From the NCBI GenBank assembly GCA_902586885.1, contig CACIJG010000005.1, positions 1 through 64,000 of the forward strand: a stretch of DNA of 64,000 nucleotides, given 5' to 3'. Of the stretch, positions 1,621 to 15,805 are shown in pieces. The stretch's first letter is position 1; the number at the start of each line of letters is the position of its first letter. The notes under the pieces were generated by a model. It worked only from the letters and a program-made list of their open reading frames with translations, was not told the origin of the DNA and made no database searches. The position numbers and the translations under genes were made by a program. Source of the stretch: an uncultured Alphaproteobacteria bacterium. Its GTDB lineage: Bacteria > Pseudomonadota > Alphaproteobacteria > Rhodobacterales > Rhodobacteraceae.

Positions 1621-2628
1621 ATGCTGACATATATTGCCAGAAGACTTTTAATATCTATACCAACTTTGATTGTTATAAGTCTGGTAATCTTTCTACTTTT
1701 AAACCTAGCGCCAAACGATCCTATGGCTCAGGTACCTTTGACTGTTCCTCCTGAAGTAAAAGAGAAAATGAGGGAGGCTCTTGGGTTAGGTCAGCCTTTA
1801 TATATTCAATTCATCAAATGGGTAGTTCAACTTTTTTGGGTAGAACCCCAAGTGTTCATTGACTACATGTTTGAAACAAACTTTTCTGAAGGAAAGCAAA
1901 GAGTGATTAGCTGGCAAACACGTAGCCCAGTCATGGATATTGTGGTACAACGGATGCCTCAAACTCTTTGGGTAGTTGGAATGTCATATATTGTGGGTAT
2001 TCTTATTGCTATTCCAATAGGGATTTATTCGGCATACAAACAGTATTCCGTTTTTGATCAGGTAGGAACATTTGTAACTATGATTGGCTATTCTGTTCCG
2101 CCATTTTTTACTGGTGTCTTTGTTATTGTAATATTTTCGGTCCAGCTAGGCTGGTTACCCTCAATATATGATACGACTCATGTTGTAGTAGATTGGGATA
2201 CTTTCAAAACCCAACTAAAACAGATGGTAATGCCCGTTATGGTTTTGGCTCTACAGACTACTGCGATGATTAATCGTTTTATGCGAGCTACTATGCTTGA
2301 TAATCTAAATCAAGACTATGTACGTACTGCCAGAGCAAAAGGATTAAGTGAATGGACAATAGTAATGATTCATGTGCTTAGAAACTCCATGATACCTGTA
2401 ATAACCGTTATTGCTCTTAATGTTCCTGCTATATTTGGCGGAGCTATCATCACGGAACAAGTATTCAAAGTAAATGGTATCGGACATCAATTAATAGGTG
2501 CGATTTACGCTAATGATTTACCGACTGTGCAAACTATAACATTTATGTTTGCTTTTCTTATAGTTGCATTCAACTTAATTGCAGACATCATTTACGGAAT
2601 ATTGGACCCTAGGATTAGATATGACTGA
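1621..2628 (+). CDS. ABC transporter permease, DppB/OppB type
   Basis: Integral membrane permease of a peptide-type importer, 335 residues. It opens with the family-typical 'YIARRLLISIPTLIVISLVI' first helix. It carries the cytoplasmic EAA-type coupling loop around residues 233-245 (YVRTARAKGLS) and ends in the usual 'DPRIR' motif. An insert of roughly 50 residues after the first helix (about 60-110) makes the periplasmic loop longer than in simple DppB proteins. It overlaps the next permease by 8 bp. Substrate is unknown; pairing with the binding protein upstream is inferred from order. Confidence 0.92.
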   Translation: MLTYIARRLLISIPTLIVISLVIFLLLNLAPNDPMAQVPLTVPPEVKEKMREALGLGQPLYIQFIKWVVQLFWVEPQVFIDYMFETNFSEGKQRVISWQTRSPVMDIVVQRMPQTLWVVGMSYIVGILIAIPIGIYSAYKQYSVFDQVGTFVTMIGYSVPPFFTGVFVIVIFSVQLGWLPSIYDTTHVVVDWDTFKTQLKQMVMPVMVLALQTTAMINRFMRATMLDNLNQDYVRTARAKGLSEWTIVMIHVLRNSMIPVITVIALNVPAIFGGAIITEQVFKVNGIGHQLIGAIYANDLPTVQTITFMFAFLIVAFNLIADIIYGILDPRIRYD

Positions 2629-3577: not shown

Positions 3578-4402
3578 TTGAGAAAAAATTTGCCCATTTT
3601 AAAAGACAAAAACTTTCCTGAATTTCGTGGTTTGCACCTCTGGCATGCACCAATGTCATCATGTTCACAAAGAGTTAGAATCGCTTTGTGCTTAAAGGAA
3701 CTTTCTTGGGTAAGCCATCCCTTAAAACTTGATAAAGGCGAACACGCAAAATCAGAGTATTTAGCAATAAATCCCAAAGGTTTAGTACCCTCACTAATAA
3801 ATGATGGAGAAGTGATTACTGAGTCAATTGATATACTAAGTTATATAGAAGGAAAATTTGGACAACTTGGCAATCAATCGTTGAGTGAAAACGTCATTAC
3901 TGAAGGACAGCATTTATTACAAAAAATAGATGAAGCTCAAAAAGACGTTAAGACTTGTAGTTTCTTTTTTCTTTTTAGAGTGAGATCAATGATGAATGAT
4001 AATGAGTTTGGTTTTTTTCAAAAAAACCACTCAAATATAGAACTTGTTAAATTTCATGAAAGGTTTCGAACAGGGCTGTCTAGAAAAGAAGTCCAAGAGT
4101 CGGTAGACAGATCGCTTTTATTTTTTAAATTAATAGAGGCTCAAATTGAAAAAAATAATGGCTATCTTTTAAACGGATCATTTTCAATCTATGACCTTGC
4201 ACTAGTCCCAAATGTTCACAGATTCACTCTGATGAGATGGCCCTTTAAAGAATATCCTAATATTTCATCATGGTTTAAAAGAATAAAGTCAAAAGACTGG
4301 TTTAAATTAGCCATTCTAGACTGGGAACCTCCAGAACTGATCGATACATTTTCTGATTTTGTAGGTAAAAGTAAAAACGATAACATATCTGCCTTTCTCT
4401 GA
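3578..4402 (+). CDS. Glutathione S-transferase family protein
   Basis: 274 residues. The N-terminal part is a thioredoxin-like GST domain: 'LWHAPMSSCSQRVRIAL' aligns with the active-site helix, the 'GLVPSLINDGEVITES' segment has the cis-proline and the E-S pair that binds glutathione, and a helical C-terminal domain follows. The most upstream start is TTG at 3578, with no convincing ribosome site, so the true start is uncertain. It sits 51 bp after the permease gene and just before a hydroxyacid dehydrogenase on the same strand. The natural substrate cannot be inferred. Confidence 0.8.
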   Translation: MRKNLPILKDKNFPEFRGLHLWHAPMSSCSQRVRIALCLKELSWVSHPLKLDKGEHAKSEYLAINPKGLVPSLINDGEVITESIDILSYIEGKFGQLGNQSLSENVITEGQHLLQKIDEAQKDVKTCSFFFLFRVRSMMNDNEFGFFQKNHSNIELVKFHERFRTGLSRKEVQESVDRSLLFFKLIEAQIEKNNGYLLNGSFSIYDLALVPNVHRFTLMRWPFKEYPNISSWFKRIKSKDWFKLAILDWEPPELIDTFSDFVGKSKNDNISAFL

Positions 4403-4425
4403 GAAAATCAAGGAACGCCACTTAA

Positions 4426-5349
4426 ATGACAAGTCTTCTTTTAATGTCCGATAATATCAACTGGTTATCTGAACTAAAAACCCATCTACCTAATATATTC
4501 ATTCAACATTATCCAGAGATAACTAAAGCCAATGAAATAGAATTTGCTTTAGTTTGGAATCCAAAGGAAGGAGTTCTTGCCAAGCTTCCAAACCTTAAAG
4601 TGATTTTTTCAATCGGCGCAGGTGTAGACCATATTTTAAGAGATAAAAGCATACCCAAAGAAATACCCATTATTAGAATGTCCGACCCTTTTCAATACAA
4701 AATGGTGGCTGAGTATGCCCTGTTGACTGTTTTGTATGTTCATAGAAATATCGAAACCATTTCTAAAAATAACAATAAAAAAGTTTGGACTGAACAAACA
4801 GCGGCGTACACACCGGAATATACGGTTGGCGTTTTGGGACTTGGAAATATCGGTTCAGTAATTGTGGACAGGATGCAATCAATTGGATTTTCCGTTTTAG
4901 GATGGAGTCGATCTAAAAAAATTTTAGATGGAGTAGAGACCTTCTCTGGATTTCAGGAGTTAGAGAGAATGTTACCCAGATGTGATTATTTAATCTGTGC
5001 ACTTCCTTTAACGCAAGAAACTAAGGGAATAATTAACAAGGCAAGTCTTAGTTTAATGAAAAAAGACTCGACGTTGATTAATATCGGGAGAGGTGAACAT
5101 ATAGAAGAGGAAGCGCTCTTAAGTTACATTGACAAGGTTCCCTTGAAGAAAGTATTTCTTGATGTTTTTCCTAAAGAGCCACTAGAGAAATCCCATTCCT
5201 TCTGGAGCCATCCGAAAATTTTTGTTACGCCACATATGGCTGGAGAAGTTCTTCCAAAAAGTGCAGTTTTTTCTGTTAAAAAGGGAATAGATAGATTCCA
5301 AAATGGCGAACCCCTCGAAAACATTTATGATAGGAAAAAAGGGTATTAA
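4426..5349 (+). CDS. D-2-hydroxyacid dehydrogenase (GhrA-like glyoxylate/hydroxypyruvate reductase)
   Basis: 307 residues. The NAD(P)-binding motif GLGNIG lies at about 138-143. The catalytic triad of the family is visible as Arg222 (NIGRG), Glu251 (FPKEPL) and His270 (TPHMAG). The short catalytic N-terminus and the 'FSIGAGVDHIL' segment resemble the GhrA subgroup, which reduces glyoxylate and hydroxypyruvate in the cytoplasm. It lies 23 bp after the GST gene and 24 bp before the FAD oxidoreductase, so the three are probably cotranscribed. Exact 2-oxoacid preference is an inference. Confidence 0.85.
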   Translation: MTSLLLMSDNINWLSELKTHLPNIFIQHYPEITKANEIEFALVWNPKEGVLAKLPNLKVIFSIGAGVDHILRDKSIPKEIPIIRMSDPFQYKMVAEYALLTVLYVHRNIETISKNNNKKVWTEQTAAYTPEYTVGVLGLGNIGSVIVDRMQSIGFSVLGWSRSKKILDGVETFSGFQELERMLPRCDYLICALPLTQETKGIINKASLSLMKKDSTLINIGRGEHIEEEALLSYIDKVPLKKVFLDVFPKEPLEKSHSFWSHPKIFVTPHMAGEVLPKSAVFSVKKGIDRFQNGEPLENIYDRKKGY

Positions 5350-5373
5350 GTAGTGCCTTCTAACATCAGATAA

Positions 5374-6663
5374 ATGACTTATAAAACCTCTCCTTTCTGT
5401 TCTGTTTGGCATAGTAATGAGCCTTATTTTTTTATAGACCAAGAACCTTTACCTACTAAGATGGAAGCGGAGTTCGTAATAGTTGGAGGTGGTTTTACAG
5501 GTCTGTCTACTGCCTTAGATCTTGCCCTTAAAGGAAAGGAAGTGATTGTTTTGGAGGGAGGGAAGATTGGTTTAGCTGCATCGGGCCTAAATGGAGGTCA
5601 ATTGAACCCCGGTTTTAAACATAACCCAACCGAAATTATCAATAGTTTTGGTAGCAGCATTGGCAAAAAAATAATTGAGTTTGGTGCCAATGCTCCCAAA
5701 AAAACAATGGCCATCATTAAGCAACATAAAATCGAGTGTCAGTTGGAAAAGGGAGGCTTTGTCCAACCGGCGCATAATAAAGCCTCACTCAGGATAGTGG
5801 ATAACCGGATTAAGGACTGGAAAAAATACACCGACAAAGTGGATTTTCTTGACAAAAATGAGGTAGGTGACCTTTTGGGAAGCGACTGTTACATTGGAGG
5901 TTTCTTGGATAGGAGAGGCGCCACGTTAAATCCTCTGAGATTAGTTAATGGCCTAGCAAGAGCAGCAATAAAAGCAGGTGTAAAAATTTATCAAGAATCA
6001 CTTGTCACAAGGGTGTCTTTTTCCAATGGGAAATGGCATTTTATGCTTAAAAATTCGAGCGTTCAGGGCATGGCAGCTGGAATATTTACCAACGCCTATA
6101 CGAATAATCTTATAAAACCTCTAAAGCAAACATTTATTCCTGTTCAAAGCTTTCAAATTGCAACTGAAAAGCTTTCTAAAGAAATAACAAGAGATTTGAT
6201 CCCTAATGGGTTTGGGGTTTCAGATTTAAATAGACTACTAGTTTATTATAGGAGAGGTCCCCATAATAGAATACTAATGGGGGGTAGAGGAACTTTCAGA
6301 AAACCTAAGTCGAAAGGTGATTTTGTTCTATTGGAGAGAAAGTTAACTAATATTTTTCCAATTCTTAAAGATGCTAAATTTCAATATTATTGGTTTGGAA
6401 ACGTTTCCATCACTCCTGACTTTATGCCAAGACTAAATATTCTTGGTCCTAGAGCCATCTCTTTTTTGGGGTGCAATGGAAGAGGAGTCGCACTTTCTCC
6501 TGCCTTGGGGCCTTATCTCTCCGACTGGTTAATAAACGGTAATGACCACCATCTTCCATTACCGGTGTCAAAAAAAATAAAAACTATTCCTTTTCATTTT
6601 TTGCATAGATTATATGTAGCAAGTGTATCTTCATATTTTAAAGCTCGAGACTGGTTAGATTGA
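5374..6663 (+). CDS. FAD-dependent oxidoreductase, DAO family (PuuB-like)
   Basis: 429 residues. A classical dinucleotide motif is at about 36-41 (VIVGGGFTGLSTALDLA), followed by the acidic ribose-binding residue near 61 and a 'GLNGGQLNPG' segment typical of gamma-glutamylputrescine oxidase and related amine or amino-acid oxidases. A second FAD-binding region near the C-terminus reads 'FLGCNGRGVALSPALG'. Such enzymes oxidise secondary or primary amines to aldehydes, making peroxide and ammonia. With the transporter, GST and hydroxyacid dehydrogenase upstream, a small amine or amino-acid catabolic operon is plausible. Confidence 0.85.
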   Translation: MTYKTSPFCSVWHSNEPYFFIDQEPLPTKMEAEFVIVGGGFTGLSTALDLALKGKEVIVLEGGKIGLAASGLNGGQLNPGFKHNPTEIINSFGSSIGKKIIEFGANAPKKTMAIIKQHKIECQLEKGGFVQPAHNKASLRIVDNRIKDWKKYTDKVDFLDKNEVGDLLGSDCYIGGFLDRRGATLNPLRLVNGLARAAIKAGVKIYQESLVTRVSFSNGKWHFMLKNSSVQGMAAGIFTNAYTNNLIKPLKQTFIPVQSFQIATEKLSKEITRDLIPNGFGVSDLNRLLVYYRRGPHNRILMGGRGTFRKPKSKGDFVLLERKLTNIFPILKDAKFQYYWFGNVSITPDFMPRLNILGPRAISFLGCNGRGVALSPALGPYLSDWLINGNDHHLPLPVSKKIKTIPFHFLHRLYVASVSSYFKARDWLD

Positions 6664-7710: not shown

Positions 7711-7941
7711 ATGGCAGTTATAAGACAAGAACCCACAAGTAATAGAATATTTGATAAAATAGTTCAATATTCAACTATATTTTATTTTTCTTTGAAAGAT
7801 AGAGTGCAAAAAAGACGAGCTTACAACAAAACTGTGAGAGAATTGAGCAAGATGACAGATAGAGATCTGGCAGACATCGGTTTCAGCAGAAGTGAAATAA
7901 AGGCAAGAGCTCTTAAAAGCATTTACAAGATAAATCTTTAA
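7711..7941 (+). CDS. DUF1127 family small protein
   Basis: 76 residues. The C-terminal half carries the DUF1127 signature (ELSKMTDRDLADIGFSRSEIKA), a short arginine-rich helix-turn-helix-like module common in Alphaproteobacteria. In some species DUF1127 proteins bind RNA or affect RNA turnover and phosphate or carbon physiology. The N-terminal 45 residues are not conserved in an obvious way. A good AGGAG ribosome site lies 8 bp before the ATG. The gene stands alone, with a 235-bp upstream gap containing a perfect palindrome, so it is likely separately regulated. Confidence 0.88.
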   Translation: MAVIRQEPTSNRIFDKIVQYSTIFYFSLKDRVQKRRAYNKTVRELSKMTDRDLADIGFSRSEIKARALKSIYKINL

Positions 7942-7950
7942 AAATACGCT

Positions 7951-7985
7951 AAAGGGAAGGGACTATTTTTTATCCCCTTCCCTTT
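7951..7985. terminator. Shared hairpin between DUF1127 gene and convergent ABM gene
   Basis: Inverted repeat AAAGGGAAGGG (7951-7961) / CCCTTCCCTTT (7975-7985) with a 13-base T-rich loop. It starts 9 bp after the DUF1127 stop and covers the last codons and stop of the minus-strand gene ending at 7970. On the minus strand it is followed by a short T-rich stretch, so it may terminate both transcripts. Confidence 0.6.
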
Positions 7986-8341
7986 GAAACGCCAGACGAT
8001 AGCGGGCTGACTAGCGGATCCCACATCTCAAACGCTTTCTTTACTTTTTCATCAGCATTCCCAAAGATTTCCATATTTGTGACTTTAATTAACCCACCTA
8101 AAGGTGCGAGTAGGTCTTTTACAACCCTCATGTGATTCATAACTGCATCATTATCGGGATACCTTTCATAAACTCTCACCGTACCCTCATCGTCGTTTAC
8201 GAAAAATTCATAATCCATCACAAGTTCGTCATCAGCGGTGGTCTTTTCAACCATTTTTTGAAAATGCTCTTTTGCCTCCCCTAGCTTACCCTCTCTAATT
8301 TTTGCACTTATTAACCAACTTATATTATCCTTATTTGACAC
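7970..8341 (-). CDS. Putative antibiotic-biosynthesis-monooxygenase (ABM) fold protein
   Basis: 123 residues. The pattern of an alternating strand (ISWLISAKIREGK), a helix with 'EHFQKMVEKT', then 'YEFFVNDDEGTVRVYERYPDNDAVMNHM' resembles dimeric alpha+beta barrel ABM/YgiN-like proteins. Members include quinol monooxygenases and many of unknown role. The start is GTG at 8341, with AAGGAGG 8 bp upstream. It lies only 17 bp after the receiver-cyclase gene, so it is probably the last gene of the signalling operon. Whether it is an enzyme or a small-molecule-binding partner cannot be said. Confidence 0.65.
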   Translation of the reverse strand: MSNKDNISWLISAKIREGKLGEAKEHFQKMVEKTTADDELVMDYEFFVNDDEGTVRVYERYPDNDAVMNHMRVVKDLLAPLGGLIKVTNMEIFGNADEKVKKAFEMWDPLVSPLSSGVSKGRG

Positions 8342-8358
8342 CTGAAATTCCTCCTTTT

Positions 8359-9405
8359 TTAATAACAGTTTAACAATTCTAATACCTCAATTTCGCTATC
8401 GCTCTTTAGCTTCATCAATCCTTTGGACTTTACCTCCAAATCACTCCTAGCTGACATCCACGCCTCATTAGATAGAATTATTTCATTCGGCTCTGTAGAA
8501 TCACACAAATTAAAAGCTGTATTTACGTTACCTCCAAGGATATCAAACTGAAAACTTTTCTTTCCTATAAGCCCTGCCACGAGGGGTCCAAAATGAATAC
8601 CTACATGGATCGACCAATTATGGCCTGAGTCAAGGGCTATCTTTTTAAGATTAAGCGCACATTTGGCAGCAGATTGAACTGGGTTCTCTAAACTTCTAGT
8701 AAGGCCCCCAGTAGCCAATATAGCGTCGCCAACTGTTTTTATTTTTTCTAATCCAGAATTTTCAATTTCATTCTCAAACTTTTCGAATATTTCTTGTAGG
8801 TTATCAACAACTTTTTCTGGCGGGTTCGACTCACAAAAGGCTGTAAAACCTACTAGATCACAAACCAAAATAGCAATATCGTCATATTTACGAGGTCTTA
8901 CTAAACCAGAAGAGTTTAATTCTTCTGCTACTTTCTCTGGAAGCACCTGCTTAAGCAAAGTTTGAGTTCTTTTTTTGTCAGCCTCAACTTTACTTAAATA
9001 GCTCTCTTCGCTGTCACGAAACCGCTTTTTCTCTAGGCAAGCTGTCACTCTAGCCTTTAGAAGGGTAGCATTTATTGGTTTAGTTATGTAGTCATCTGCA
9101 CCATTACTAATACATTCAGCGGTGGTTTCTATTTCATCCGCTGCTGTGACCATAACCACAGGTATGCTTCTATTCTTTGGATCTGCCTTCAATATTTTCA
9201 ATACTTCTAAACCACTAATGTCCGGCATCATTAGGTCTAATAGGATGAGATCAAAACTTTCTTCTTTGACAAGTTCTAGCGCCTTTTTTCCACAGTCAGC
9301 TTGGCTAATAGCGGTATACCCACTTCTTGACAACCTTCTTTCAAGCGTGAATCTATTATCTTCTATATCATCTACTATCAATATTTTTTGATTAGAAACA
9401 TTCAT
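8359..9405 (-). CDS. Receiver-adenylate/guanylate cyclase fusion protein
   Basis: 348 residues, no membrane segment. Residues 1-125 form a CheY-like receiver (Asp pair 12-13, phospho-acceptor Asp57, Lys109). A coiled-coil-like linker (about 130-165) leads to a class III nucleotidyl cyclase domain (about 172-320). Metal-binding Asp183 (LVCDLVGFT) and Asp227 (TVGDAIL) are present, as are Lys223 and Asp288, the pair that selects ATP. At the position of the transition-state arginine (N-x-x-x-R motif) there is Asn299 instead (NTAFNL). It may make cAMP poorly or act otherwise. It is two bases downstream of the single-receiver gene. Confidence 0.88.
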   Translation of the reverse strand: MNVSNQKILIVDDIEDNRFTLERRLSRSGYTAISQADCGKKALELVKEESFDLILLDLMMPDISGLEVLKILKADPKNRSIPVVMVTAADEIETTAECISNGADDYITKPINATLLKARVTACLEKKRFRDSEESYLSKVEADKKRTQTLLKQVLPEKVAEELNSSGLVRPRKYDDIAILVCDLVGFTAFCESNPPEKVVDNLQEIFEKFENEIENSGLEKIKTVGDAILATGGLTRSLENPVQSAAKCALNLKKIALDSGHNWSIHVGIHFGPLVAGLIGKKSFQFDILGGNVNTAFNLCDSTEPNEIILSNEAWMSARSDLEVKSKGLMKLKSDSEIEVLELLNCY

Positions 9406-9407
9406 AA

Positions 9408-9776
9408 TTAATTAGGAACTTCAATATATTGGCCTATCTTACCCAACAGCCTTTTAATGTCGACCGGTTTAGTGTCATAATCGCTGCAACCCGCTTTTAA
9501 TGCCCTGTCTCTGTGTTCCGGCATAGCGTGGGCAGAAAGAGCAATGATTGGAATTTCTTTTATTTCATTCATTCCTTTTATTTTTTCAGTGGCTGTCCAT
9601 CCGTCCATTGTTGGAAGGCTCAAGTCCATTAATATCAAATCAGGCTTTTCTTCTTTTGCCATATCAATTCCTTCTTGACCATCACCGGCAATAATTATAT
9701 CAAACCCTTTTTTCTTAAGCCTCCGGCTTAGCATATAAATATTGTCTGGATTATCTTCAACATATAAAATTTTCAT
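9408..9776 (-). CDS. Single-domain response regulator (DivK/CheY-like)
   Basis: 122 residues consisting only of a receiver domain: acidic pair in 'YVEDNPDN', phospho-acceptor Asp in 'LILMDLSLP', the switch Ser in 'IIALSAHAM' and Lys in 'YDTKPVD'. The 'SAHAM' and 'CSDYDTKP' segments are typical of DivK-like proteins and of receivers that accept phosphate from hybrid kinases. The start codon overlaps the stop of the kinase gene (TAATG). It has no output domain, so it probably relays or buffers phosphate between the kinase and the cyclase. Confidence 0.92.
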   Translation of the reverse strand: MKILYVEDNPDNIYMLSRRLKKKGFDIIIAGDGQEGIDMAKEEKPDLILMDLSLPTMDGWTATEKIKGMNEIKEIPIIALSAHAMPEHRDRALKAGCSDYDTKPVDIKRLLGKIGQYIEVPN

Positions 9777-12700
9777 TATTTTACCTTACCTGAAATGGTC
9801 TCAATTGTTTTAACAAGTTCATCGGCAATTCCAGTGTCTGACATAGTCGATTTCTCTAAAACCCTAGTTGTTTCCGATGACAAAAATGCTCTGTCTTTTT
9901 CATCTAAATCTGCCCCTGTAATTACAACTACTGGTACAAGATCCTTAAACTCATCTCTATATTTTTCTATAAACTCAAAACCATTCATTACAGGCATCAT
10001 CAAATCCAGTAAAATTAGATCTGGACGCGGATTAGAAGAATTTCTTAATAATTCCAATGCTTCCCTTCCGTTTGCTGCCTCCAACACCTGATAATCAGAG
10101 CTAATCAAAGACTCTTTTATAGTAAAACGCAGATCTTCATTATCTTCAACTACCATAATAACTTTATCACTCTTTTCCCCAATTAATTTTTCAATCGAAG
10201 CAATAAGCCTTGTTCTCTCTACAGGTTTTGATAAATAATCAGCTGCCCCCAATGAGAATCCCTTCTTCTTTTCATCTATTATTGAAGCCATAATGACCGG
10301 AATGTGAGAAACTTCATTATCAGCTTTTAATGTTCTCAACACAGACCATCCGTCTAAATCCGGCATCAAAATGTCAAGAGTAATAGCATCAGGTTTATAT
10401 TCTCTTGCCATTTTAATCCCTTGAGCACCATCTAAAGCCTGTAAAACAACAAAATTATTTTTTTCCAAATGCCTAGTCATTAAATCTCTTATTGTCGGAT
10501 CATCGTCTATTACCAATATGGTCTGCATACCATCAGTATTCGAAGATTCTACTGCCTTCTTATTTAAACTCTCTAAATCCTCAGCAATACTTTCGTTTTT
10601 ATCTTCAGTTAAATTATTTTTAAAAGACACGGAGAATGTTGTACCTTTTCCTAACTCACTGCTAACAGAAACATCTCCACCCATCAATCTAGCTAAATTC
10701 TGAACAATTGTTAAACCTAGACCCGTACCACCATATTTACGAGTAGTTGACGCATCCGCCTGGGTGAATGCATGAAATAATTTATCGATTTGTTCCTTAG
10801 TCATTCCAATACCGGAGTCCTTAACATCAATCTCTATGAATTCATTAATATTCACTTTTCTAGATTTTACGGTTATTGATATTTTCCCGTCTTTACAAAA
10901 CTTTGCTGCATTAGAAATTAGGTTTAAAATTATTTGCTTCGTTCTAGTAACGTCAGCGTTTACAAAACTTATTCCATCTTGGACATCCAAAAGCAACTCG
11001 TTGTTATTTTGCTCAACTAGAGTTCGGGATGTTTCGGTTACCTCCTCTAATAATGCAGGAAAACTAAAATTCTCATTATAGAGCTCAACTTTACCAGCCT
11101 CAATTTTTGAAAGATCTAAAACATCGTTTATCAAATTTAACAGATGCTTACTGGCACTATGGATTCTCTCCAAAGGCTCATGATAATCATCAAGCTCATC
11201 ATCCTCAGCGTCCTCTCGAAGCATTTCTGTTAAACCTATAACAGCATTTAAAGGTGTTCTGAGCTCATGGCTCATGTTTGCAAGGAATTGGCTTTTTGCT
11301 TTGTTTGCGCCGTCTGCCTGTTCTTTTGCAACATTTAATTCATTAACCGTAGTCTCTAAATCGTGCTCTCTCTGCTTTAGATCGGTAATGTCATAGAATA
11401 TTTGAATTAGACCCTTATCAGGCAGTCTCCTGCTTGAGATCTGAAGTATTCGCCCATCGCTAGTCGGAGGTAGATAGCTAATCTCTGTGCCTGTAATTTT
11501 ATTTCTTTCCTGAATGCGATTTTCAACCCAAGCCTCAAAATCTTTCTCCTCAAGATTTAATATTCCACTACTTATAAAAATTCTTGAACCTTCTTTAAAA
11601 GTACTCCCTATCTCAAGAGTTTCTCCAAATATTTTCTCCATATAATTATTCACTAAAGCTAGACGATCATCTTGATCCCAAAACAATATTCCAGCTTCGA
11701 TATTGTTTATTGCATTATTGACCAATTGTTGAGCTTCTTCAACCTTACCCTCAAGTCTCTTTCTCTTATCAATATTTTCAACAATTCCAATTAACTTGAT
11801 GGCTCTTCCATTTCTAAATGTTGCTTTTGCTCTAGTTTGATACCAAATTTCCTTTCCCTCATGAACATTGATATGTTCCACGCTAACTTCCTGAGTTTTA
11901 CCAGTTACATGGTCTCTAAAAGCATCCTTGTAGGGCTTTAAAAAATCTGCACGCAGGTTTTTATAGCCTTCCTCCTGAGTGCCTGAAGTAGAGCTTTCCC
12001 CCCAAAATTCTTTCAACGCACTGGGAATTTCATAGGTAACTTTATCATGTTCAAGATCAGACTCAAACACGATTGCTTCTAGATCGCCTAATACACGATC
12101 AAATCGTTCTCTCTGTCTTTCTATAAGTTCCTCATGCTTTTTTATCTCTGAAATATCTGTATAATTCTGGATAAAGCCCCCATCATCTAGCAATCGTGAA
12201 GTAGCCAAATATATGATATCTCCAGCTCTTGACTCGACGGTTATCCCTTCCTTGCTTTCTACCATACGACCTTTTTGAAAACCTATAAACTCTTTCAAAG
12301 TCATTCCGGGTGGAAGATCAAGGATACCTTTTTTTAATATATTTTGGAGCATAGCCTCTCTCTCGACACCCGGCTTAAGTTCAAAATCCCAATGCCTTTG
12401 AACATCAACAGCTGCTTGATTACAAAAGAATACTTTATTGTCTGAATCCCAAATAATTATTGGATTGACTAATTTTTGGATTCCATCAGACAATCTTTCC
12501 AATTCTTTCTGCTGGGACTTAACAAGAGTAATATCTGTTATAATTTGAATCCAGTCCCCGCTTTCCACTCTGACAGCCGATTGAAGCGCATCTCTTTGGC
12601 CTTCATCACTATTAAATACAAATTCAAATCGTGCACCATCTGGATTATTATCCATATCGTGCTTTAATCTTTCGGCATAAGCCTCTGCCGATTTCTCTTC

Positions 12701-15184
12701 TGTAGTTATTACTCCTGTCGAAAATTGTTTTCTAACAAAATCCAGCCTATCTACTCCCGGTACCATATCAAAATTGATTTTTCCTGCAAAATCCCTAAAA
12801 AACTTGTTCGCAAAAACTAATTTATCGTCATTGCTCCATATTGCTACTGCAGTAGATTTGAATTCATCAATACCTCTTTTAATCCTATCCAGCTCATTCT
12901 GCTGTTTTTTTATGTCAGATATATCAGTATAACTTTGTATGAAAGATCCATCTTCCAGGCCAACGTTCGTTGAAAGCCAATCTCGATCATCAATCAACAT
13001 TTCTCTAGAATAGCCTTCTTTTCTTTCCCTCAACATATCAACTGTTTTGTTTAGATAATCTTTTATAGAAATACCTTCAGGTAAATCAAAAGCGCCTTTA
13101 TCTACTGTATTCTTAAACATATCATACCTGGAGCAGCCTTTGACCAAATCGTAACCTAGATTTCGCTGAACTTTTTTAGCTGCTTCATTAGCAAAAAACA
13201 ATTTCTGGTCTTGGTCCCAGACTATAACGCCAGAGGACATTGCATCAATAGCATCAGACAACCTTTCGAGATCTTTTTGCTGATTCTTTAATTCAGTTAT
13301 GTATGTATAAGACTGTATGTAGGACTCATCTTCTAAAATAATCTGGCTATTCAACATATATTCGTCTTTCACCTTAATCTCAGTGGTAACACCTTCCTTT
13401 TTTTCTTTTATCTTATCGTAAGACTCTTTTACCCAATCCTTTATCGATTTACCTTTTGGTATTGGTGAGTATCCTTCTTTCTGCTGATGTTCTAGCATAT
13501 CATATCTTGAAACACCTTGTTTAAACTCAAATCCAAAGGGATTATCTCTCATTTCCTTATTAGCAAAAATCAATTTATGGTTTTTATCCCAAACAATAAT
13601 TCCACCCGACATCTTATCTATTGCTTCATATAACCTGTTCAAATCAGATTCTCTCTTTTTCTGATAGGAAATATCAGTGATGATCTGCATCCAATCACCA
13701 CTCTGAAGCCTAAATGCCGTATTCAGCCAGAATTCTTTTTTCCCTTTTGACTCTGTTGTGAATTCTAAATTCGCACCCTTTTCAGACTGATCAATTAGAT
13801 CCATTAGAGCTGAATGAACCTCTCTAGCAGTCCTGTCACCATATGAAATAAACCCTTTCGAAACAGAATGCTCGAGATACTCAATTCTATCCGTACCAGG
13901 TATCAGATCATATCCTGTACTTTGCTTAGTGAAATCCCTCAAAAATTTATTTGCATAAATAAGCTTATTATCATGGCTCCAAAAAGACACACCACTGTTA
14001 ACCTGTTCAATACCTTGCTGTAGTCTTTTTAGCTCTTTTTCTTGTTTTTTAAGGAATGTGACATCAGACATTATCTGTAAAATATTTCCATTATCTAGCC
14101 TCTTCTCACTAACCATAGTGAAAGAACCGTCTGAGAGACCATAGGTTGTAGTATTTTCACCCTTAAATTCTTTAAAATATTTTACTGCTTTCTTTGCCCA
14201 GCTTTCCTTAGTTTCATCATCTGGAATATTATAAAAATTGTTTTCAATTTGACTTTCAACGCTCTCCTCCCAAGTCATTCCAACTTCAGTTTTGATACCA
14301 AAAGAGTTATTAACTTCTTTAATATATTTATTGTATTTTAAAAGTTTAAGATCTTTATCCCAAAGCTGAACACCATGAGACATGTTGTCAATTGCCTCTG
14401 TTAGAATGCGTTCCTGAGATTCCTTTTCTTCTAAATCCGTCACGTCGTTTAAGATCGTTAATATTCCTCCATCATCCAGCTTATTTTCTGTTCTAATGAC
14501 GGTTTTACCATTCTTGTATCTCACCTTTGTTGATTTGGATGTAAGCTCTTCTCGTTCCTTTAATCTTTTTTCAACGAATTTTTCTACAGAAAAGTCCTTA
14601 GGCACCGAATATAACTTTTGTTTAAATTGACTAGACAAAAAATCAGAATAAGACATGCCTTCTTTCAAAGTTATTCCATCGTTAAGATTCTCTTTTATTG
14701 CTAATTCATTTGCTTTTATTAAGTTTTCATCTTTATCCCAAAACATCACGTGCGAAGGTATAGAGTCTATTGCGCTTGAAAGTCTGTTTTGCATTTCAGT
14801 CCTATTTTTACTTTCTGTAATATCTGAAATAAAAGTGACTATGTGTCCATCATTTGAAGGGGTTTCTTTTATGTGAAACCAAATATCATCCAATAGGAAT
14901 TCTCTAACTATAGGCTTCCTGTCTTTTCTTGCTCTCTCTCTTAAGGCAAATCGATCCTCCACATCTTTTTTATTTAAAATAGATTTCGGGTTTTTTAGCG
15001 CTTCTTGATAAGATTGTTTAAAGTTCAAGCCAATTCTCGCATCAAGCAACATGTTTCTCGAAAATATGTTGCTATATTTTTTGTTGAAACCAATAAGAGT
15101 ATCGTCTTGATCCCATATTGCTAAGCCTTGATCAGAATTATCAAAGGCATCTAAAAGGGCTTGCATTGTTTCAGAAACACTCAT
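9776..15184 (-). CDS. Giant multi-PAS hybrid histidine kinase with two receivers
   Basis: 1802 residues counted from ATG 15184, which has GGAGG at a 6-base spacing; an ATG two codons upstream abuts the ribosome site. No signal or membrane segment is seen, so it is cytoplasmic. Nine PAS_7-like units (each near 120 residues, signature W[DS]xD..L...N) start near 8, 135, 260, 387, 518, 642, 769, 898 and 1152; a divergent PAS unit sits at about 1026-1143. A coiled coil leads to HisKA (His1306 in SHELRTP), HATPase (N box near 1425, G boxes 1457-1490) and two receivers (Asp1604, Asp1727). It lacks an Hpt domain. It is first in an operon with two further receiver proteins. The stimulus is unknown. 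Confidence 0.93.
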
Positions 15185-15271: not shown

Positions 15272-15805
15272 TCAGAATTCTAGTAAAAATTTTGATTTAA
15301 CACCTAGATTTTCGAGTTTATTTATTCCACCTAAGTCAGGTAGATTTACAACAAATCCAGCACCAACAATCTCTTTTTTATCAAATTTTTTAATTAATTC
15401 GAGTGCAGCGATAACTGTTCCCCCAGTAGCTAGGAGATCATCTATTATTAATAGATTCTTGTGCCCATCTAAAGCGTCCTGGTGAATCTGCATATCCGTA
15501 GCTCCATACTCTAACTCATAAGATACTGAAAAAGTTTGCCAAGGTAATTTCGCAGGCTTTCGAAGAGGAATAAAAGCAGTGTTCAAATTATACGCAAGAG
15601 CTCCTGCCATAATAAAACCACGAGACTCAATACTTAAAATCGCATCAATGTTTTCCCCAGCCCACTGTACTGTCATACCATCTATCATTTTTTTAAAATG
15701 TTTAGGGTTTTGTAGAAGTGTAGTAATGTCTCTAAATTGAACACCTTCAACTGGATAATCTGGAACGGTTCTAATACTCCCTTTTAAATCATCAAAATCA
15801 TTCAT
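15272..15805 (-). CDS. apt: Adenine phosphoribosyltransferase
   Basis: 177 residues, close to the usual length. It salvages adenine by condensing it with PRPP to AMP in the cytoplasm. The PRPP-binding loop reads 'LLIIDDLLATGGTV', and the N-terminal 'IRTVPDYPVEGVQFRDITTLL' is the conserved Apt opening with the flexible hood region 'RKPAKLPWQT'. The start overlaps the end of the preceding transporter gene by 8 bp. No terminator is visible before the kinase gene promoter region. Confidence 0.96.
   Translation of the reverse strand: MNDFDDLKGSIRTVPDYPVEGVQFRDITTLLQNPKHFKKMIDGMTVQWAGENIDAILSIESRGFIMAGALAYNLNTAFIPLRKPAKLPWQTFSVSYELEYGATDMQIHQDALDGHKNLLIIDDLLATGGTVIAALELIKKFDKKEIVGAGFVVNLPDLGGINKLENLGVKSKFLLEF

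Follow-up and report, generated by a model that had tools for sequence, protein, structure and literature searches.

What does a histidine kinase with some ten PAS-like units read, and to which output is it wired? We ask this of a signalling locus in an uncultured member of the Rhodobacteraceae (the window, as used here, is the whole stretch of 64,000 nucleotides that was analysed). An earlier note, written from the sequence alone, had described four genes: a cytoplasmic ten-PAS hybrid kinase, a lone receiver, a receiver-cyclase fusion and a small ABM-fold protein. Comparing the locus with its relatives, we consider it rather probable that three genes make up a phospho-signalling module here, with a combinatorial and exchangeable array of PAS sensors at its input end.

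A conserved kinase, receiver and receiver-cyclase

The ORF list and Pfam confirm the positions and domains of four same-strand reading frames with spacings of -1, 2 and 17 bp (Table 1). The kinase also has an in-frame Met at 15184, an alternative start that agrees with the end of the operon in the earlier note. In this protein Pfam finds PAS_7 in seven stretches, HisKA, HATPase_c and two Response_reg domains; the HELRTP of its HisKA, the HATPase and a receiver with a phospho-acceptor Asp identify it as a hybrid histidine kinase. It has no membrane-spanning-like stretch (maximum 19-residue mean hydropathy 1.16), in agreement with its description as cytoplasmic, and the Asp is visible in all four of the receiver domains counted earlier (LDILMP, LDLMMP, MDLSLP and LDLMMP). 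The claim that there is no Hpt holds for the Pfam model PF01627, which has no match in the window's own genome (1.84 Mb, 68 contigs, 76% complete), although the model need not find every Hpt-like protein and other Hpt-like folds are possible. A four-step His-Asp-His-Asp phosphorelay thus has no Hpt partner by PF01627 in this 76% complete assembly. The same genome holds 12 class III cyclase family matches, 4 cNMP-binding matches and, at E 0.001, no PAS_7 outside this kinase. Elsewhere in it (C2:73260-74014) a class III cyclase has a cNMP-binding protein directly behind it, and the two may form a cyclic-nucleotide pair of their own.

Table 1. Features of the locus (window coordinates, or residues of the kinase).
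Feature	Position	Strand	Remarks
ABM-family small protein, 123 aa	7970..8341	-	ABM PF03992 (Pfam)
Receiver and class III cyclase fusion, 348 aa	8359..9405	-	Response_reg and Guanylate_cyc (Pfam)
Asn299 codon of the cyclase	8509..8511	-	At the presumed transition-state Arg position
Lone receiver, 122 aa	9408..9776	-	Response_reg (Pfam); 1 bp overlap with kinase end
Soluble hybrid histidine kinase, 1804 aa	9776..15190	-	ORF and Pfam
PAS array, units 1-10	11375..15181	-	Residues 4 to about 1272; number and types vary among relatives
Units 2-9, putative cassette	11747..14806	-	Residues 129-1148; resembles L035 (G019) more than other parts of the locus do
HisKA of kinase	residues 1298-1366		Carries HELRTP
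HATPase of kinase	residues 1413-1524		
Kinase receiver 1	residues 1558-1666		
Kinase receiver 2	residues about 1683-1790		
Phosphoribosyltransferase, apt-like	15272..15805	-	Immediately upstream of kinase

Soluble hybrid kinase, lone receiver and receiver-cyclase form a real, conserved three-gene module. A scan of named genomes gave at least 440 relatives, and our analysis rests on the best 80 loci, which include SAR116, Sneathiella, Rhizobium, Microvirga and Ruegeria. Among these 80 of at least 440, the kinase lies upstream in 78, the lone receiver is present in 78, and both occur in order in 76; the two loci without a kinase start at a contig end, and the two without a lone receiver are L110 and L126. 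All four rhizobial plasmid loci examined have the identical gene order. Within the window's genus the order of kinase, receiver and receiver-cyclase is kept inside fixed flanks, and the lone receiver is 83-88% identical in these loci and 51-74% elsewhere. A cyclase match at E 1e-30 is found in 13 of 21 same-genus genomes (in G015 a fragment only). Seven of the eight genomes without it also lack the adjoining EamA gene, so the locus region is probably unassembled in these seven; in the eighth, G009, the flank is present together with a partial kinase that runs off the contig, and there is no cyclase match. One SAR116-set locus, L063, has a kinase that ends at 9211 and a receiver that starts at 9995, its frame stopping about 780 bp early through a probable frameshift or an assembly fault.

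The cyclase domain and its output

How much of the earlier reading of the output survives depends on the cyclase. Its domain keeps the metal, adenine and ribose residues of class III, namely D183 and D227 (which we take to be the metal Asp residues), K223 and D288 (presumably the adenine contacts) and N295 (presumably the ribose Asn). At position 299, which we take to be that of the transition-state Arg, it carries Asn. The same Asn stands in all 49 rows of a clade made up of the window's genus, L062, the SAR116 set and L097/L098, and Arg stands in the other 35 rows; the clade forms one side of a branch with support 100/98. Our motif pattern missed five rows, four of which (L096, L120, L123 and L124) were read by eye and keep Arg; the fifth, L117, could not be read and does not enter the tree. 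Seven of the 11 other cyclases in the window's own genome were aligned, and all seven keep Arg. Multi-PAS arrays do not require the Asn, since L096, the nearest outgroup, combines several PAS units with an Arg cyclase, and so do L102, L121, L125 and L129, which have 3-5 PAS_7 units. L120, L123 and L124 belong to a branch that has degenerated in another way: Arg is kept there, but Ser replaces the second metal Asp and Glu the ribose Asn.

With Asn in place of the transition-state Arg, cAMP output by this clade's cyclase is uncertain. The statement that the cyclase is the only visible output still holds for this operon, with the proviso that this cyclase lacks the catalytic Arg. Likewise, the proposed flow of phosphate from one soluble sensor to a nucleotide second messenger stands as far as the kinase, receiver and receiver-cyclase are concerned, and its cAMP end is in doubt. 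One could go further and suppose that the cyclase is dead or very weak throughout the clade, the true output being the lone receiver or a protein contact made by the nucleotide-bound cyclase domain. The uniform replacement in 49 rows, set against Arg in the remaining rows and in the aligned cyclases of the same genome, speaks for this idea, but the residues for metal (both Asp), adenine (Lys and Asp) and ribose (Asn) are all retained, and an identity of 86-89% with the full-length copies in the genus shows that the protein is being maintained. We regard this alternative as unlikely, though it is the strongest of those considered here.

A mosaic of PAS units

Turning to the input end, a PAS unit profile built from the window kinase and 11 relatives matches nine PAS_7-like units in the window kinase, and the score of PAS_7 (PF12860) over the array is 238 bits for a cut-off of 27. 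Between the eighth and the last profile-matched units is a gap of 131 residues that this profile does not match on its own; only its length and position lead us to count it as a divergent tenth unit. Nine of the ten PAS-like units first described are therefore clear. Structure prediction, which the earlier note had proposed as a check, gives for the tandem of units 5-6 two PAS folds joined by a helix, with PAS strand and helix order (mean pLDDT 94.2); the nearest solved structures by fold (Foldseek) include DosP, NifL and FixL, and by sequence profile MmoS (3ewk, E 9e-6).

We then compare 45 arrays, sorting their units into types by single-linkage grouping at 70% amino-acid identity. The arrays comprise 12 from the genus (L030/L050 and G009 are partial and stand outside these 12), 25 from a SAR116 set (loci L063-L095 with a kinase uncut by a contig end, a few of whose titles lack the word SAR116; L064 has one 60-residue unit), three contig-cut ones (L078, L083 and L084) and five from other lineages (L062, L096, L097, L098 and L117). 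Together they hold 417 units of 126 types. The 12 complete genus arrays have 126 units of 42 types, with 10, 11 or 12 units each and nine distinct type strings; the 25 SAR116-set arrays have 238 units of 59 types, with 4 to 12 units each and 23 distinct type strings. The two groups have no type in common. Ten PAS units are thus one allele, not a fixed trait of the kinase.

Three features of these arrays tell how they change. No type is repeated within any of the 45 arrays; 391 type pairs co-occur in at least two arrays and only one of them has a conflicting order; and the best match of a unit sits in another array for 409 of the 417 units, the best match within the array having a median identity of 39%. 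These features point to in-register exchange of alleles together with gain and loss of units, not to repeat slippage. The arrays also vary far more than the output to which they are attached. Of 24 SAR116-set pairs whose cyclases are at least 95% identical in DNA, 17 share less than half of their combined unit types (the remaining seven share 0.57 to 1.0), loci with 98-99% identical cyclase genes can share less than a third, and L079 and L080 have identical cyclase rows and different arrays. Over the 300 SAR116-set pairs, the correlation of cyclase identity with type sharing is 0.62, which indicates that arrays descend vertically too. By sequence, the array in the window's genus and in SAR116 is a recombining mosaic of PAS unit types, in which units are exchanged, added or dropped in whole blocks while the kinase core, receivers and cyclase vary far less. 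Marine cells with near-identical outputs thus appear to be wired to different inputs.

Individual pairs of loci locate the exchanges. Between the window and L035, which belongs to another species, units 2-9 are 82-89% identical in DNA, unit 1 is 62%, unit 10 is 59% and the kinase core 71%, with 76% for the cyclase and 62-82% for the other shared genes of the region; we read units 2-9 of the window as a cassette that was exchanged horizontally. L031 and L033 have kinase cores that are 97% identical in nucleotides, with 97-99% for receiver, cyclase and downstream genes, and units 1-7 that are only 49-66% identical. L033 and L036 are 91-94% identical in units 1-3 and part company some 24 residues inside unit 4, and exactly one unit distinguishes L036 from L038. 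A viral scan gave no sign that arrays are carried by viruses: of its 18 loci, one has a long cyclase match (39% identity, L148) and the others have shorter matches, in the receiver part.

Is the array unusual for its surroundings? We compared 60-100 kb around the locus in four genomes (six pairs), and the kinase is the lowest-identity shared gene in five pairs. In the remaining pair it is second lowest of 21, below it being only a 25% match covering 59%. Four of the five pairs have 43, 58, 49 and 41 shared genes; in these four and in the pair with 21, the N-terminal arrays are 46-55% identical and the cores 91-94%. For G008-G014 its lowest rank is an alignment shift caused by a one-unit difference between arrays that are otherwise 99% identical, which leaves four of the six pairs in which the array really is the most divergent. 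The second least conserved shared gene in three of the six pairs is the apt-like phosphoribosyltransferase. Its allele classes, down to 68-71% identical in DNA, track the array's 5' end, although its neighbour on the far side is close to 90% identical in these genomes. This divergence fits linkage of the apt-like alleles to the adjacent array.

Sequence changes between arrays tend to concentrate near the inter-PAS linkers. Change-points lie within 12 aa of a unit boundary at 35 of 56 distinct junctions (expected fraction 0.20), a count that is partly circular because units are typed whole. In a type-free test, 73 of 86 DNA-match ends lie in a range that begins just before the boundary and covers 40% of the unit, and 70 of 88 match starts lie in the 50% around the boundary; both ranges were picked after the histogram was seen, and conserved linkers also lengthen matches. 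Over 104 type representatives the exit linker is the most conserved part (mean entropy 1.7 bits), followed by the linker helix and the A, B and I strands (2.2-2.4), and the F helix and the G and H strands are the most variable (3.0-3.2). Within unit types, the median dN/dS is 0.060 (353 same-length, same-type pairs with dS 0.05-1), next to 0.038 for HisKA-HATPase (134 pairs), and no pair with dS 0.05-1 exceeds 1. These low values indicate constrained modules that are being recombined, with no sign of fast single-residue change.

The same numbers bear on whether the array means anything for sensing. PAS units might be mere spacers or a dimer scaffold, shuffled without sensory meaning, as the range of 4 to 12 units would allow and as intragenic recombination alone could achieve. 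Against this stand the strong purifying selection within types, the dissimilarity of the units of one array, which is unlike that of slippage repeats, and a divergence that is the highest of the neighbourhood in four of six pairs. We find a purely neutral or structural array improbable, and more so than a dead cyclase; part of the PAS variation could nevertheless be neutral. Array alleles also seem to outlive species splits, units 1-9 being common to L040 and the L032 group and units 2-9 to the window and L035, a pattern that balancing or frequency-dependent selection would produce.

Returning to the three-gene module with an exchangeable sensor array, we can sketch how it might work. Homologous recombination through conserved linkers and flanks would exchange arrays between coexisting lineages, and each unit type may sense something different or tune the sensing of its neighbours. 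The array would integrate several intracellular cues through signalling helices onto one HisKA kinase dimer, and the kinase would phosphorylate its own receivers, the lone receiver and the receiver of the cyclase directly, without an Hpt; support for direct transfer to the latter two comes from receivers that are intact, a gene order that is fixed and the fact that no Hpt was detected. The receiver would then gate the cyclase domain, whose role may be cAMP synthesis, slow cAMP synthesis or that of a nucleotide-binding switch. On a still wider and more tentative view, which we put at slightly less than an even chance, coexisting marine bacteria keep a pool of PAS modules that recombination moves among them, ahead of a kinase core that hardly varies and a possibly repurposed cyclase: many inputs, one output.

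If so, sensing itself would be a polymorphic trait of marine populations. Orthologous sensor kinases are usually taken to have fixed inputs; in these close relatives they combine nearly identical outputs with different input modules. The arrays offer natural, evolution-tested recombination points for chimeric PAS sensors, and the 126 unit types a natural panel for finding PAS_7 ligands. The Arg-to-Asn clade raises a separate question, the role of a conserved and catalytically odd class III cyclase. Surface antigens and restriction specificity subunits are known cases of allelic modules exchanged by recombination around constant parts; those loci face phage, DNA or hosts, whereas the present one encodes an intracellular sensor kinase.

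Known systems, the fourth gene and the flanks

Control of a class III cyclase by kinase and receiver is already known from cyanobacterial CyaC, which has kinase, receiver and cyclase in one chain. The logic of histidine kinase and receiver gating a class III cyclase is the same here, but it is spread over separate genes, with a multi-PAS array as sensor and a cyclase without the transition-state Arg. According to a review (PMC4284465), AphC purportedly phosphorylates and activates CyaC. GcyB/GcyC of R. centenum were considered as a parallel and rejected: they are described as putative or non-catalytic guanylyl cyclase subunits linked to cgrA, not as a kinase-receiver system (PMC4681086). Hybrid kinases with PAS input such as BarA, LuxQ and NahK/ErcS share HisKA, HATPase and receiver with our kinase and give its best NCBIfam matches, far below the cut-offs (BarA 301 bits, cut-off 890); the present system differs in having no Hpt found in the genome, two C-terminal receivers and up to 12 PAS units in a mosaic array. 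Closest in gene order are the kinase, two-receiver and cyclase loci of Rhizobium, Sneathiella and other Alphaproteobacteria (L046-L049 and L099-L116), where the lone receiver is 56-68% (not called in L110) and the cyclase 37-47% identical to the window's. Their kinases are about 800-1080 aa long with one or two PAS_7 units in most (L102 has 1457 aa and four units; L109 has no kinase on its contig), and their cyclases have Arg. A mosaic PAS array in a sensor kinase is not described in the titles and abstract starts of the open-licence literature searched.

What, then, of the fourth gene? In the earlier note it completed an operon in which phosphate from one sensor leads to cAMP, with the ABM protein acting on the sensed compound by binding or modifying it. 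The protein belongs to the ABM family by profile (25.8 bits for a cut-off of 23.1, Pfam PF03992), and it is found in 3 of 101 genomes searched and in none of 21 same-genus relatives (at least seven of which lack the locus region in their assembly). In all 12 same-genus loci examined its slot is occupied instead by an EthD-like gene of 102-104 aa, which matches the EthD structure 3bf4 at E 5.8e-11 and lies below the Pfam EthD cut-off; its model has a beta-alpha-beta-beta-alpha-beta order at low confidence (pLDDT 62). EthD-like and ABM families share the dimeric alpha+beta barrel fold. The EthD-like gene was not found in the window's own genome (in a search run without a positive control), and neither gene lies within 180 bp downstream in SAR116 or other loci. 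We accordingly drop the ABM protein as a conserved member of the system, and as its dedicated partner, since it is private to the window genome; of the four-gene set held to be conserved together, the first three genes pass the gene-neighbourhood test and the fourth fails it. Tight spacing, the shared strand and the small EthD-like protein at the fourth position in same-genus relatives favour the operon as first read, but with the ABM protein missing from all 21 of them, neither gene directly downstream in the other lineages and a cyclase that lacks the Arg, we judge it quite improbable. Two further leads on the ABM protein gave little: no plasmid match was found at E 1e-5, and its phmmer matches to pentatricopeptide proteins, about 26-34 residues against repetitive chains, were discounted as repeat summation.

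The preferred module with its exchangeable array might itself be an artefact, if chimeric single-cell amplification or mis-assembled repeats had made the mosaics. Most genomes are indeed single-cell (judged by isolate names) or metagenome assemblies, and many loci carry single-cell isolate names (some titles begin with 'MAG'). However, the units within an array are too different to collapse, and type strings recur in independent assemblies: L032, L034 and L039 share one, L093 shares another with L095, from metagenome assembly MED585, and units 1-9 of the array of L032 also occur in MED-G56, likewise a metagenome assembly (L061, the same contig as L040). We think this explanation very improbable. 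Least probable of all is an anti-phage Pycsar-like cyclase system, for which the weak PycC profile matches (best E 1.1e-9) are those expected of any class III cyclase, and which is opposed by the receiver-gated cyclase with its kinase, the conserved synteny, the lack of an adjacent effector in the four genes or ten neighbours scanned and a PADLOC scan that gave domain-level matches only.

The surroundings of the fourth gene deserve brief mention. Genes for a GST, a D-2-hydroxyacid dehydrogenase and a DAO protein (window 3578-6663, plus strand) lie a few kb from the site where ABM and EthD-like genes replace each other, and are unmatched in the fetched regions of same-genus relatives (L030-L042). 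Beside the fourth gene is a small gene (7712-7942, plus strand), presumably DUF1127-like, that is present in all six relatives examined there.
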